DNA from: Desulfobacterales bacterium
Lineage (GTDB): Bacteria > Desulfobacterota > Desulfobacteria > Desulfobacterales > Desulfosalsimonadaceae
Reading direction: 5' to 3'
Assembly (NCBI GenBank): GCA_034520365.1
Contig: JAXHNP010000006.1
Location: 1,109,001 to 1,173,000, forward strand
Length of the DNA stretch: 64,000 nucleotides
Position 1 is the first letter of the stretch, and every line of letters begins with the position of its first letter. This document shows, in pieces, positions 41,729 through 63,260 of this stretch. Below the pieces are notes generated by a model. The model had not been told where the DNA came from. It did not search any database and saw only the letters and a list, made by a program, of their open reading frames with translations. The position numbers and the translations under genes are program-made.

Positions 41729-41776
41729 AAACCTAATACCTAATACCCAAAACCTAATACCCAAAACCTAATACCC
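41729..41776. repeat. Short tandem repeat CCTAATACCCAAAA
   Basis: About three units of a 14-bp repeat. Its first 26 bases reappear in reverse complement at 63005-63033. Confidence 0.7.
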
Positions 41777-41784
41777 GCAGTTAC

Positions 41785-43377
41785 TTAAAAAACATATTCC
41801 AGACTGACATAGAACAGCCGGTCGTCCCGGTCGATATCTTTTGGCTCGCCATAAAGCCCTGAGAGAAGGGATTCCGTATAATCTCGGCTGATAAACTGAT
41901 AACCGGTCCGCATCTGTAGGGTTTTTTCAACCAAGGGCTGATTCCAGTATACCTCATAGACGCTGCCCCGCGTATTCAGTTTTTGATAGGGGTCGGTTGC
42001 CGCGATATTTAACCCCACCCAGTTCTCCGAACCGTTGAAATATTCAAGGCCGATTTTCGGGTTACGCAGTTTTTCAAATGGCAGATGATACCGAAGGCCC
42101 AGATATAGTGCCCATCCGTCCTCGGAACCTTCATTGTCGGCAGAGCCCAGATAGGGGCCGGCATTGCCGTAGATCTCCTGCTGGATGCCGTTGAGCACCT
42201 CATTTAATTCCGGCGGCATTTTATCGGAGTTGAGCGGCAGGCCGTTGACCCGAATTTTATCTCCGTTTGGCTTTGTTTTGCTGTAGGCCGCACTGGCAAA
42301 GACATCAAGCGGCCAGTCAAACAGCCGGTCATTGGAGACTTGAAGGGTGTATTTATCCACATGGCCGAGTTCATCGGGGAATTGGACATTTGGCAATGCG
42401 TTTATTGGGGTTCCTTTAAGCATCAAAAACCGGTTCAGATTGTCCCTGAAGGCGTCATCGCCGGTGGGCCGCAGGTTGTCCACCCGGAACCACTGAAGCA
42501 CGCACAATGAATTATCCAGAAACGGCAGGCGGTTATTCAACTGGACGGTGTAGAAGTCAATATCTTCAAGTCCGTCCGGATCTCTTAAAAACGGGCTGGC
42601 ATCAATATCATCCTCGCTTCTGGCGTAGACCAGGTTCAGGGATTTGGCAACGGACTGATTAAAATAAAAAGTGAGTGCCGCCCCGTCGGACTCGGCATTA
42701 AATGTCAGGTCCGGATAACTGGTCATGCCCGGCCGGTTGTACCGGTATTTGGTTAAATACCCGCCTGAGGTGGGCAGCCGGCCGAAAGTTAAATTAATCT
42801 TTCGATTAAGCCATGACGGGCGGTAGTCAACATAGGCCCGTTTAACCTTGAGCGCGGAGTCCGCGGGCTTGTTGGAATAGTGAAAATCAGCGGCCCTGAC
42901 ATCTTCCGGGGTGTTCCAGGTGCCCCAGAGTTTGTACATGGTGAGGGTGGCGTGAAATCGCACCTCCTCACTGGGATCGGCCGAGAATTTGAGATCAAAA
43001 TAGTTGACAAACGCGTTATCGTATCCTTCCTGGTCCGCGTCGTTATCTTCGCGGTTCAAATCAAAATAGGAGGAACGCAGATAGGCTTCGTTTCCCAGTC
43101 GGTATTTTTCGATCAGGCCGGCATCTTTAATGGTCTGTTTGTAGACATGGGTCATATGCTGTTTGAGCGTTTTGATCTGCTCCTGCTGATCAGTGACCTG
43201 ATTTTCAAGATCACCGGACTCCTTTTTCTGCCGTTTCAGCTTTTGATTCAGTTCATTGACCTGTTTTTCAAGCCGGTCTATTTCTTTTTGATCGTGATCC
43301 GCCGCTGCTGCCGGTGCAGCCATCAGGATCAGGCATAAAAAACAGGCGAAAAGGGCGAAGCGTTTGGCATATTGCAT
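41785..43377 (-). CDS. DUF3373-family outer-membrane beta-barrel protein with coiled coil
   Basis: 530 residues. Signal peptide (MQYAKRFALFACFLCLILMA, cleaved after AAAA around 26), a coiled coil from about 30 to 75 (heptads in DRLEKQVNELNQKLKRQKKE), and then an amphipathic-strand region to the C-terminal aromatic residue in YVSLEYVF, as expected for an outer-membrane barrel. The DUF3373 family, found in Desulfobacterota, is a porin-like group often near c-type cytochromes. It is last in an operon after two small secreted CX3CH proteins, which suggests a membrane electron conduit or porin module. Confidence 0.82.
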   Translation of the reverse strand: MQYAKRFALFACFLCLILMAAPAAAADHDQKEIDRLEKQVNELNQKLKRQKKESGDLENQVTDQQEQIKTLKQHMTHVYKQTIKDAGLIEKYRLGNEAYLRSSYFDLNREDNDADQEGYDNAFVNYFDLKFSADPSEEVRFHATLTMYKLWGTWNTPEDVRAADFHYSNKPADSALKVKRAYVDYRPSWLNRKINLTFGRLPTSGGYLTKYRYNRPGMTSYPDLTFNAESDGAALTFYFNQSVAKSLNLVYARSEDDIDASPFLRDPDGLEDIDFYTVQLNNRLPFLDNSLCVLQWFRVDNLRPTGDDAFRDNLNRFLMLKGTPINALPNVQFPDELGHVDKYTLQVSNDRLFDWPLDVFASAAYSKTKPNGDKIRVNGLPLNSDKMPPELNEVLNGIQQEIYGNAGPYLGSADNEGSEDGWALYLGLRYHLPFEKLRNPKIGLEYFNGSENWVGLNIAATDPYQKLNTRGSVYEVYWNQPLVEKTLQMRTGYQFISRDYTESLLSGLYGEPKDIDRDDRLFYVSLEYVF

Positions 43378-43417
43378 TGCTCACCTCCGAATTAAATGTG
43401 AATATTTAAATGGGTAC

Positions 43418-43759
43418 TTACCATACCCCGATGCCTTCGGATTCCGGTTCAGCATTATCTGCATGGGTTAAAAGATATTGAAGAATTTTTTCTTTCTGCT
43501 CCGGGCTCTGCCACGGGATCTCGGCAAAAATGGCGTGTCCGTTTTTTTCAATCAGCATTCGCCATAAGTTTTTGGGCTTATCCTTTGGTGAGATGCTTTG
43601 GGGGGCATGACATTTGCGAAAGCAGATGGCGTTGTCAAAATCCTGCCGGGTGAAGCCTTCTTGGCTGTTTTTTTCCTGGGCCATGGCGACCAGTACAGCG
43701 GCAAACAGAATGCATGTGCAAAGCAGTCCGATCCGCAGCAAAGTTTCAGGAATGCGCAT
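43418..43759 (-). CDS. Small secreted CX3CH protein 1
   Basis: 113 residues from ATG 43759 (a TTG 33 bases earlier is possible). An N-terminal signal (GLLCTCILFAAVLVAMA) precedes a short mature chain with one NAICFRKCHAPQSI motif, CX3CH instead of the canonical heme-c CXXCH, followed by WRMLIEKNGHAIFAEIPW and the conserved end GIGVW. It is a paralogue of the next gene upstream (43793-44212). If heme is attached, His in NGHAIF or Met could be the second ligand; this is inference. Operon partner of the DUF3373 barrel. Confidence 0.7.
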   Translation of the reverse strand: MRIPETLLRIGLLCTCILFAAVLVAMAQEKNSQEGFTRQDFDNAICFRKCHAPQSISPKDKPKNLWRMLIEKNGHAIFAEIPWQSPEQKEKILQYLLTHADNAEPESEGIGVW

Positions 43760-43792
43760 TTTCCCCTCCAGTGGTAAACGGCTTATAATCAA

Positions 43793-44212
43793 CTAATCCC
43801 AGATACCGATGCCTTCTTTAATGCCATTTGCATCCCGGGCATGGCGCAGTAGATAGATAAGAATCTGATCCTTTTGTTCCGGGCTTTCCCAGGGGATCTT
43901 CCGGAAAATGGCATGACCGTTTTTTTCAATCAGAATAATCCACTGTTTTCGGGTTTTCTGGGACGGTGAAAAATCCTTTTCCGTATGGCATCGTTTAAAA
44001 CAGATGGCGTTTTTAAATTCATTCTGGGGCAGGGGAGGGAGGGATTTTTCTTTTTCTTCGATTTCTTCCATCAGGGAGGGGGACAATTCGATTAATGCTT
44101 CCTCATCCAGGGGGGTCAGGGCGTTTATCGGTTTTGACGTAAAAACGGCCAAACAAACCATCATTAAAACAGCGCTGATAACAAAAGCTCTAAACTGATA
44201 GGGTTTTATCAT
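43793..44212 (-). CDS. Small secreted CX3CH protein 2
   Basis: 139 residues, paralogue of 43418-43759 (shared NAICFKRCH, LIEKNGHAIF, IPWESPEQK, GIGIW). Its N-terminal signal (AFVISAVLMMVCLAVFTS) is followed by an acidic linker and one CX3CH motif. It is the first gene of the three-gene minus-strand operon; its stop touches the start region of the next gene, so translation is probably coupled. Heme-c attachment through CX3CH is known for a few cytochromes and would need the matching maturation; not proven here. Confidence 0.7.
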   Translation of the reverse strand: MIKPYQFRAFVISAVLMMVCLAVFTSKPINALTPLDEEALIELSPSLMEEIEEKEKSLPPLPQNEFKNAICFKRCHTEKDFSPSQKTRKQWIILIEKNGHAIFRKIPWESPEQKDQILIYLLRHARDANGIKEGIGIWD

Positions 44213-45927: not shown

Positions 45928-46803
45928 CTATTCTTTTGATATCCACTGAACAGCGGGTTTTTTTCTGGACACCGTGTGGCTGTAGTCGTATTTGGGGTGC
46001 CCAAGCACAAGGCTGGCATGGATTTTCCGGCCTTCGGGCAGTTCGATAGTTTGGGTTAGCTGCTTGCTGAACCGGCTGGCCAGGGTGACAAAACCGATCA
46101 TGCAGGTGCCGAGGCCCAGTGCGTGGGCGTAATTCATGATGTTTGTCGCCGCGATATTGCAGTTGGCGGCGCCGAAAAACGAGCGGGCCGGGGCGTGGAT
46201 TAAAATCAGGACGGGCGCATTGTGAAGGATCAGATCCCGTCCGGCATCCATCTGGGCGATGTAATCATCCATGGGGTCAATGTATTTTTCAAACAGCCGC
46301 GCCATTGCCGGGTAAAGCTTTAAGCCGCCAAACACCATTCTGCCGGGCGAGGTTTGGGCCCAGTCATAAATTTTTCGGCCAATGGCAAACACCTCTTCTG
46401 ACACCTTGTTTAATCGAGCCGGATCTGTAAGCACAGTATATTCCACATGCTGGCTGTTGGTGGCGGTGGGCGAATACCCGGCCAGATCGATGATATTTTG
46501 TACAGTCTTGCGCCGTACCGGTTTTTTTAGATACTGCCGCACACTCCGGCGGGTAATAACCGTTTCCCGGCAGGCATTGGGATCAATCCGGTTTTTATCA
46601 ATCGGCCGGACCTGGCTGGGGTCCAGCTTATCATGGACGATCGCTTCCGTGGGGCAGACCGCTACGCAATGGCTGCACAGGTTACACCGTTCCGGGAGAG
46701 CCGCCACCGGCTCCTCGTTTTCTATCTGCCAGACCCCGGATATGCAGTCGCTTACACACCGCATGCAAAGGTTGCATCTGTCCGCCATGCGATAAATCGC
46801 CAT
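45928..46803 (-). CDS. Nitroreductase with N-terminal 2[4Fe-4S] ferredoxin domain
   Basis: 291 residues. The N-terminal 65 residues hold CNLCMRCVSDC and CNLCSHCVAVCPTEAI, a two-cluster ferredoxin. The rest is an FMN-dependent nitroreductase (TRRSVRQYLKKPV, AGYSPTATNSQHVEYTV, ALGLGTCMIGFV). This fusion is common in strict anaerobes; electrons from ferredoxin-like donors would reduce FMN and a nitro, quinone or enone substrate. Substrate unknown. Start ATG 46803 is clear. Confidence 0.9.
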   Translation of the reverse strand: MAIYRMADRCNLCMRCVSDCISGVWQIENEEPVAALPERCNLCSHCVAVCPTEAIVHDKLDPSQVRPIDKNRIDPNACRETVITRRSVRQYLKKPVRRKTVQNIIDLAGYSPTATNSQHVEYTVLTDPARLNKVSEEVFAIGRKIYDWAQTSPGRMVFGGLKLYPAMARLFEKYIDPMDDYIAQMDAGRDLILHNAPVLILIHAPARSFFGAANCNIAATNIMNYAHALGLGTCMIGFVTLASRFSKQLTQTIELPEGRKIHASLVLGHPKYDYSHTVSRKKPAVQWISKE

Positions 46804-55645: not shown

Positions 55646-57592
55646 ATGACCGAAGAGAAGAAATATACGGCATATAACCGCCTGATTAATGAAAAAAGTC
55701 CCTACCTGATCCAGCATGCGCATCAGCCGGTAAACTGGTATGCATGGGGCAAAGAGGCCTTTGAACGGGCTCATAATGAGGATAAGCCCTTGCTGGTATC
55801 CATTGGATATTCAACCTGCCACTGGTGCCATGTAATGGCTGAAGAGTCCTTTGATGACTCGGAAATTGCGGAACTGATGAACAGGTATTTCGTGTGTATC
55901 AAGGTGGATCGTGAGGAGCGTCCGGATATCGACGCCCTGTACATCACCGCGGTTTCGTCTTTGACCGGATCGGCGGGCTGGCCCCTGAATGTATTTTTAA
56001 CCCCTGAGGCAAAACCCTTTTTCGGCGGCACCTATTTTCCGCCGCAGTCCAGGCGGTATATGCCGGGCTGGCCGGATATTTTAGCTCAGGTTTATAAGGC
56101 CTGGACGGATCCGGAGCAGCGGAAAAAATTAGAGGACTCGGCGGATGCCATTGTCCGGCGCCTGAAGCAGCATTTGTCGGATCCGCCCGCTAAAGGCAGC
56201 GAAACCGATATCTCCCTGAATATGATAAAGGATGCGGCAAAGGCTTTTGCTGAAGATTATGATCCGAAAAACGGGGGATTCGGCAATGCCCCGAAATTTC
56301 CCATGCCGCCGATTTTAGAGTTTTTACTCACCTTTAATGGCTTTTTCGGAGAGAATTCCCAGGATGAAAAGCTTAATGAAAAGTCCCTTGCCATGGTCAA
56401 GTCAAGCCTGGATGCCATGGCCTATGGCGGCATCTATGATCACCTGGGCGGCGGTTTTCATCGGTATGCCACAGATGCGAACTGGCATGTGCCGCATTTC
56501 GAAAAGATGCTCTATGACAACGCCCAGCTGATATCCGTTTATATCAGCGCCTATCAGAAAACCGGTGACGCGCTTTATGCTGATGTTGCAAGGCAGAGCA
56601 TCGATTATGTGCTGCGGGACATGTCCCATCCGGACGGCGGCTTTTATTCTGCCGAGGATGCGGACAGCGTGCCGCCGGATGCAGACGGTGAACATCCGGC
56701 CAAGCGCGAGGGCGCCTTTTATGTTTGGCCCTATCAAGAGGTCCGAAAGGTTCTGGAAAACAGCATGAATAAACAGGCGGCAGATCTATTCTGCTACCTG
56801 TTTGATATTCGGGAAGACGGCAATGTGAGCCAGGATCCGTTCGGTGAATTCAAGGGCCGAAATGTCCTTCATCAAATCCGTTCCATAAAAGAGGGAGCGG
56901 ATTATACGGGGATAAGCGAGGCTGAGGCCCGGCAGTTGGTAGCTGATGCCCGGCAGCGGCTGTTTCAGGATCGCTTAAACAGGCCGCGGCCGCATCTGGA
57001 TGACAAGATACTCGCTGCCTGGAACGGGCTTATGATCTCCGCCCTGGCGCGGGCGGCAACGGTTTTTGATTCGCCGGAGGATCTGGCAGCCGCTGAAAAA
57101 TCCGTTAATTTCATCTACAATAATATGTACGTCCCGGAGTCCGGGCAGCTTTACCGCCGCTGGCGGGAAGGGGAGGCCGGGATCAAGGCGCTGGCTGATG
57201 ACTATGCATTTTTAATCAACGGGCTGATTGATCTTTATGAAGCCGGCTCCCAGCCCTGGCTTTTGGAGTGGGCAACAGCGCTCATGCATCGGTTTTTATC
57301 CGATTTCGTGGATACCGCTACCGGGCTGGTTTACTTAACCCCCCAATCCTATGATCCGCATATCGCCTTTCAGGTAAAGGATCTCATCGACAATGTGACC
57401 CCATCGGCCGCATCCGGTGCCGCGCTTGGATTGGTAAGATTGTCTAGAATGACCGGCAGCCAAATATTTGAGACAGCAGTTGAAAATATTTTCAGGCATG
57501 CCGGTGGGGAAATCAGCCGTTTCCCGAAAATGGCGCCCTGTCTGCTGGTGGCGGTTATGGTATCCATGTCCGATAATTCGTGTAATTCATGA
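55646..57592 (+). CDS. DUF255 thioredoxin-fold protein (YyaL/SSP411 family), C-terminally short
   Basis: 648 residues. N-terminal thioredoxin-like domain with [16 protein letters not shown] (CXXCH active site) and [16 protein letters not shown], then the (alpha/alpha)6 barrel ([40 protein letters not shown]). The family is usually about 670-700 residues; this copy ends [16 protein letters not shown], losing the last about 80-90 residues of the barrel, including the usual final strand. Truncation by a frameshift or deletion, or a natural shorter variant, is possible. Function unproven; a sugar epimerase-like fold and thiol chemistry are suggested. Confidence 0.82.
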
Positions 57593-62966: not shown

Positions 62967-63049
62967 AGGTGGGCGCATCCAGCCTTTTAAGTAACTTCAC
63001 GGATTTTAGGTTTTGGGTATTAGGTATTAGGTTAATGAAATCAAGAATT

Positions 63050-63185: not shown

Positions 63186-63260
63186 GTTCACAGTTCACAG
63201 TTCACAGTTCACGGTTCACGGTTCACGGTTCACGGTTCACGGTTCACAGTTCACGGTTCA
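63186..63260. repeat. Heptamer tandem array (GTTCACR)
   Basis: Ten complete 7-bp units alternating GTTCACA and GTTCACG, then a partial unit. Related single units occur at 52486-52510 beside MITE C. Likely variable in copy number between strains. Confidence 0.85.

Follow-up and report, generated by a model that had tools for sequence, protein, structure and literature searches.

Predicted tandem CX3CH monoheme cytochromes encoded with a DUF3373 porin-type barrel in a member of the Desulfobacterales

Cyc2 joins one heme and a 16-strand porin in a single fused chain, and its pore presumably admits the soluble substrate (PMC8406198). The MtrAB, MtoAB, PioAB and Geobacter porin-cytochrome conduits encode a barrel and a cytochrome in one operon, and in the MtrAB type a multiheme wire is held in a barrel of 26 strands (PMC8406198). 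DUF3373 proteins make up TCDB family 1.B.62, for which 18 strands are predicted (PMC4827864). Heme attachment through a CX3CH motif, which the original prediction for the locus studied here had called rare, is indeed uncommon but already known: ImcH and CymA homologues of R. ferrireducens contain such a motif, predicted to bind heme (PMC6295460), and surveys of the Desulfovibrionaceae report it as well (PMC11434368). In ImcH and the CymA homologues CX3CH is one among several motifs of a multiheme membrane cytochrome, whereas the proteins described below have no other predicted heme site, and their close homologues carry either CX3CH or CX2CH. Descriptions of the attachment machinery usually give CXXCH as the motif that it recognises; the motifs CXXCK and CX15CH need dedicated lyases (PMC10663686, PMC3601427), and artificially changed Cys spacing causes System I to misfire, with extra sulfur being added (PMC3601427).

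The window analysed here is a stretch of 64,000 nucleotides from a Desulfobacterales bacterium with a genome of 4.33 Mb. It contains three consecutive open reading frames on the minus strand in the order P0002, P0001, P0003 (Table 1). Since the gaps between them are only 33 nt (P0002/P0001) and 40 nt (P0001/P0003), the three genes likely form one operon; promoter and terminator scans at this site gave nothing above shuffled controls. As had been proposed from the sequence, P0002 and P0001 are paralogues (47% identity over 96 residues, E 5e-33) with a single motif of the CX3CH type each. P0002 carries the stretch NAICFKRCHTEK followed downstream by LIEKNGHAIF, and the P0001 reading frame (43418-43792) carries NAICFRKCHAPQ followed by the same LIEKNGHAIF. 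For P0001 the ATG at 43759 is a more plausible start than the TTG at 43792, because GGAGGGG lies just upstream and the predicted product has a clean signal peptide that appears, by reading, to end in AMA/Q. Both N-termini read as hydrophobic stretches with plausible cleavage sites. An orthologue of P0002 from the same genus is 65% identical to it.

Table 1. Predicted features of the three-gene locus (positions within the window)
Feature	Position	Strand	Details
P0002, secreted monoheme cytochrome c-like protein, CFKRCH (CX3CH)	43793..44212	minus	139 aa, operon gene 1
P0001, second secreted CX3CH cytochrome c-like protein, CFRKCH	43418..43759	minus	113 aa, ATG start
P0003, DUF3373 outer-membrane barrel, short type, N-terminal coiled coil	41785..43377	minus	530 aa
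P0002 predicted heme-attachment motif CFKRCH, residues 71-76	43985..44002	minus	TGT TTT AAA CGA TGC CAT
P0001 predicted heme-attachment motif CFRKCH	43607..43624	minus	TGC TTT CGC AAA TGT CAT

In combining predicted one-heme cytochromes with a porin-size barrel, the locus resembles Cyc2. It differs from Cyc2 in having separate genes, with no heme motif in the sequence of P0003, a barrel of another family (Omp50/DUF3373), two cytochromes and the CX3CH spacing. With the Mtr-type and Geobacter conduits it shares the joint operon, but it has no multiheme wire and, judged by the homology of the barrel, no 26-strand sheath. The explanation that we favour for the whole, at a probability of roughly 0.6, is that P0002 and P0001 are periplasmic monoheme cytochromes which work with the DUF3373 porin, are matured by CcsBA and resemble a split form of Cyc2.

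A heptamer-based repeat, (ACCTAATACCCAAA)n, lies next to the operon at 41731-41776, between a helicase gene and the barrel gene, and recurs in the window at 63006-63032 and 63186-63260. A 24-mer of this repeat matched the genome 124 times with up to three mismatches, compared to 0 matches for the reversed control; (ACCTAATACCCAAA)n is a repeat family dispersed over the whole genome. Further 7-mer arrays are present elsewhere in the window.

Homologues of the two small proteins were found in 11 of 60 relatives, all belonging to two genera, and a search of 389 genomes of the order gave matches in 12, again confined to these genera; the relatives that carry names are Desulfobacterales or Desulfobacteraceae metagenome genomes. 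The homologues are often arranged as tandem pairs. An alignment of 21 sequences showed C71, F72, C75, H76, W91, L94, G99, H100, I102, W108, G134 and G136 to be invariant, which argues that the CX3CH motif is not a chance occurrence; the two Cys and the His, on whose retention the original prediction depended, are thus never lost in this set. The Cys-Xn-Cys-His arrangement is also kept in a wider set of 49 sequences, with a spacing of 3 or 2. Among 22 homologues, in all of which both Cys and the neighbouring His are retained, 15 have CX3CH and seven have CX2CH. The CX3CH members read CF(K/R/I)(K/R)CH, so that the extra residue falls within a mostly basic pair. How close the two forms can be is seen in the second genes of two genomes, G028 and G022, which are neighbours in the tree (support 90/26) and differ by one codon after the first Cys (TTC AGA CGA TGT CAC in G028, TTC AGA TGC CAT in G022). 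The tree, which was built with the motif columns left out and has few columns and several open forks, implies at least three spacing changes within the family.

A further line of evidence is the company that these genes keep. In all nine genomes of the window's family that carry a short-type DUF3373 gene (G000, G002, G004, G013, G016, G022, G028, G032 and G034), one or more cytochrome genes lie immediately upstream of it on the same strand, and the genes flanking this unit differ between G000, G002, G013, G022 and the group G004/G016/G034. The search for co-conservation that had been suggested for the three genes therefore came out in favour of a link. Outside this family, a small cytochrome precedes the barrel gene in five of six short-type DUF3373 loci from five other families. 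The cytochrome homologues at five further loci (L027, L030, L033, L034 and L041) have no barrel gene on the available stretch, and most of these lie near contig ends. From these gene neighbourhoods we judge a functional pairing of the cytochromes with the DUF3373 barrel to be quite likely. No precedent for a DUF3373-cytochrome pairing was found in a literature search that mostly excluded subscription journals.

The same neighbourhoods bring in another possible role, in which the cytochrome would inform a chemoreceptor or kinase about the redox state of a compound entering through the porin, as in energy taxis. At six loci of related families (L035, L036, L039, L040, L081 and L084) the DUF3373 operon is followed by a gene for a methyl-accepting chemotaxis protein or a hybrid histidine kinase, hinting at redox or substrate sensing. 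Neither gene adjoins the operon in the window or the CX3CH-family loci that were read, and a sensing role is accordingly improbable here, even if it is the strongest competitor to the periplasmic cytochrome-porin reading.

Other neighbours were noted as well. Two of the barrel-less CX3CH homologues (L033 and L034, in G016 and G035) adjoin an MFS transporter gene, and L033 also adjoins a ferredoxin-nitroreductase gene; in the window a ferredoxin-nitroreductase gene is found at 45928-46803, 1.7 kb from the operon. A third related group of CX2CH cytochromes occurs near DUF3373 genes of the long type, where a sulfur transporter, TusA and DsrE are also encoded. At the long-type loci L075, L078 and L079, DUF3373 is accompanied by a PAS/sigma-54 activator and a small CX2CH cytochrome. 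Genome-dependent additions are sulfur transport/TusA/DsrE genes plus a Mo-oxidoreductase (molybdopterin)/NrfD or an octaheme cytochrome with cytochrome b561. These loci look like a cluster for the respiration of sulfur compounds.

The nature of the barrel bears on what the pairing could do. As the original prediction stated, P0003 belongs to DUF3373 (PF11853, 5.2e-49, profile positions 4-382 of 409). It ends in a C-terminal Phe. Alone, it matched the 50 kDa outer membrane protein Omp50 (PDB 10aw_A) with an E-value of 2.8e-15; a profile of 16 short-type DUF3373 sequences matched the same structure at 1.4e-58 over positions 11-510 of 510. Short-type proteins score about 150-177 bits and long-type proteins, which are not linked to the window's cytochrome family, about 400 bits. 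By homology, then, the DUF3373 barrel is a porin-type relative of Omp50 and presumably not a 26-strand Mtr sheath, which makes an Mtr-like heme wire unlikely.

It had been suggested that the locus is a minimal porin-cytochrome module serving as an electron conduit. The module part of this stands, as the cytochromes are co-conserved with the barrel; the conduit part, in the Mtr sense of a multiheme cytochrome inside a 26-strand barrel, is not supported, as each cytochrome has a single heme motif and the barrel is of the Omp50 type. Two cytochromes placed inside the barrel as a wire to the cell exterior would fit the shared operon and the strict co-conservation. Against such a wire, an Mtr-like chain would need more than the two hemes available in total, the barrel has the size of a porin, one member of the genus encodes just one cytochrome instead of a pair, and no surface cytochrome is encoded nearby: the only other heme-motif reading frame in the window contains a CHWCH in a 648-aa protein (55646-57589), which is probably no heme site. 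We therefore rate a trans-outer-membrane conduit as even less probable than sensing, and return to cytochromes that act in the periplasm beside a porin.

That P0002 and P0001 are cytochromes at all follows from their relatives rather than from direct matches, since neither protein by itself matched a Pfam model. With NCBIfam, P0001 hit isocitrate dehydrogenase (E 0.001), but the score was 18 bits where the cut-off is 567, and the hit was put down to chance. In other families of the Desulfobacterales, proteins of about 105 aa with CX2CH are encoded ahead of short-type DUF3373 (L035, L036, L037, L038 and L040), and four of these five reach a Pfam cytochrome c cut-off (PF13442, 29.6 against 27; PF00034, 22.9, 21.9 and 22.7 against 21.3). 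Like the window proteins, they are encoded directly upstream of the barrel and have the Trp, the distal His and a C-terminal helix; unlike them, they have canonical spacing, occur as a single copy, lack the long N-terminal extension and are usually followed by a chemoreceptor or kinase gene. An hhalign comparison of the two groups gave a probability of 96.2% and an E-value of 2.4e-9 over 71 columns, in which CFKRCH was paired with CGK-CH and QW..GH with QW..KH. When both groups were aligned jointly, both Cys, the His of the motif, the Trp and the distal His (His100) were invariant. The heme reading of the two proteins is thus well supported: it is highly likely that both are c-type cytochromes, which would bind heme covalently. 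A secreted structural protein in which zinc is held by the two Cys and two His, or in which the Cys are joined in a disulfide, would agree with a domain that has exactly two Cys and two invariant His, an atypical Cys spacing and no direct Pfam match, but is very improbable given the close orthologues with CX2CH at the same site, the homology to accepted small cytochromes c, the conservation of the Trp and of the C-terminal YL helix, and structural matches to DHC and SorB cytochromes only.

The closest solved fold to these predicted cytochromes is the first heme domain of the diheme cytochrome DHC (PF09626; 3u99, 2fwt, 2fw5), in which CxxCH, Trp, His and the C-terminal YL helix follow each other in the same order as CX3CH and its counterparts here. 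Among the nearest solved relatives found by profile, DHC (3u99, 4e-4) ranked below generic cytochrome c; the A1 profile alone gave no reliable match in the PDB. A model of the trimmed cytochrome core (49 sequences, mean pLDDT 68.5, pTM 0.59) had only DHC and SorB cytochromes as structural neighbours, at a middling Z of about 6 and a Foldseek E above 1, and the Foldseek matches of the full-length P0002 model (mean pLDDT 67, pTM 0.36) were meaningless. DHC has two hemes, whereas each window protein has one CX3CH, and even the CX2CH relatives stay below the Pfam cut-off for DHC. The window cytochromes have a DHC-like fold at most and are no DHC.

The comparison also points to the sixth heme ligand. 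DHC uses His51 as this ligand, which precedes Tyr69-Leu70 of the C-terminal helix by 17 residues (PMC2909971); in the window cytochrome, His100 precedes Tyr120-Leu121 by 19 residues. A sequence alignment with gaps sets the DHC ligand two residues away from His100. Ligation by His76 and His100 is therefore predicted. The His of LIEKNGHAIF, which had been put forward as the second ligand, is the best candidate and probably fills this role; it is invariant across the CX3CH and CX2CH groups.

Which machinery would attach such hemes was approached through PF01578 (Cytochrom_C_asm). All 12 genomes examined have two PF01578 genes, whether they carry the cytochromes or not (G002 has an extra weak fragment), and a dedicated CX3CH lyase was accordingly rejected. 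In the window's genome the only two are a CcsA encoded beside a presumably ResB-like gene (System II) and a HemX-like protein encoded between what we take, from reading the neighbouring sequences, to be met8-like and hemA-like genes. The PF01578 search of this genome found no CcmC/CcmF-type lyase and no Ccm system, so that the native Ccm system assumed at the outset gives way to CcsBA, and the dedicated lyase that was sought did not turn up. Without either, it is probably the single ordinary CcsBA that loads CX3CH with heme, unless the proteins lack heme altogether.

Put together, the two small proteins would be periplasmic monoheme cytochromes of class I or DHC-like type. CX3CH would bind the heme through its two Cys and its His, with His100 as the probable sixth ligand in bis-His ligation, and the cell's one CcsBA would probably attach it. 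A soluble redox substrate may enter through the DUF3373/Omp50-like barrel and exchange electrons on the periplasmic side with the cytochromes, which are perhaps in contact with the barrel and would pass electrons to or from a periplasmic pool; the separate genes would be the split counterpart of the fused Cyc2. By analogy with Cyc2, we offer this substrate-entry mechanism as tentative, at somewhat less than even odds. The fuller proposal, that the locus is a respiratory module of two components and an independently evolved Cyc2 counterpart on an Omp50-type barrel, in which ordinary CcsBA attaches the CX3CH hemes, the inserted residue tunes the heme and natural orthologue pairs reveal the tolerance of System II, is rather unlikely to hold in all its parts.

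CX3CH itself was already known. For its alternation with CX2CH in a small monoheme family with one CcsBA, the literature search, from which subscription journals were mostly absent, yielded no precedent. Because System I reportedly misfires on altered spacing and other unusual motifs have their own synthases, a CX3CH motif served by CcsBA would be an informative case, and orthologues that are one codon apart in Cys spacing, with a single CcsBA in the genome examined, amount to a natural test of how much spacing System II tolerates. The pairing with cytochromes also places DUF3373, a family of unknown function, in a concrete redox setting, and if the proposal is true, the natural CX2CH/CX3CH orthologue pairs would reveal the substrate tolerance of System II.
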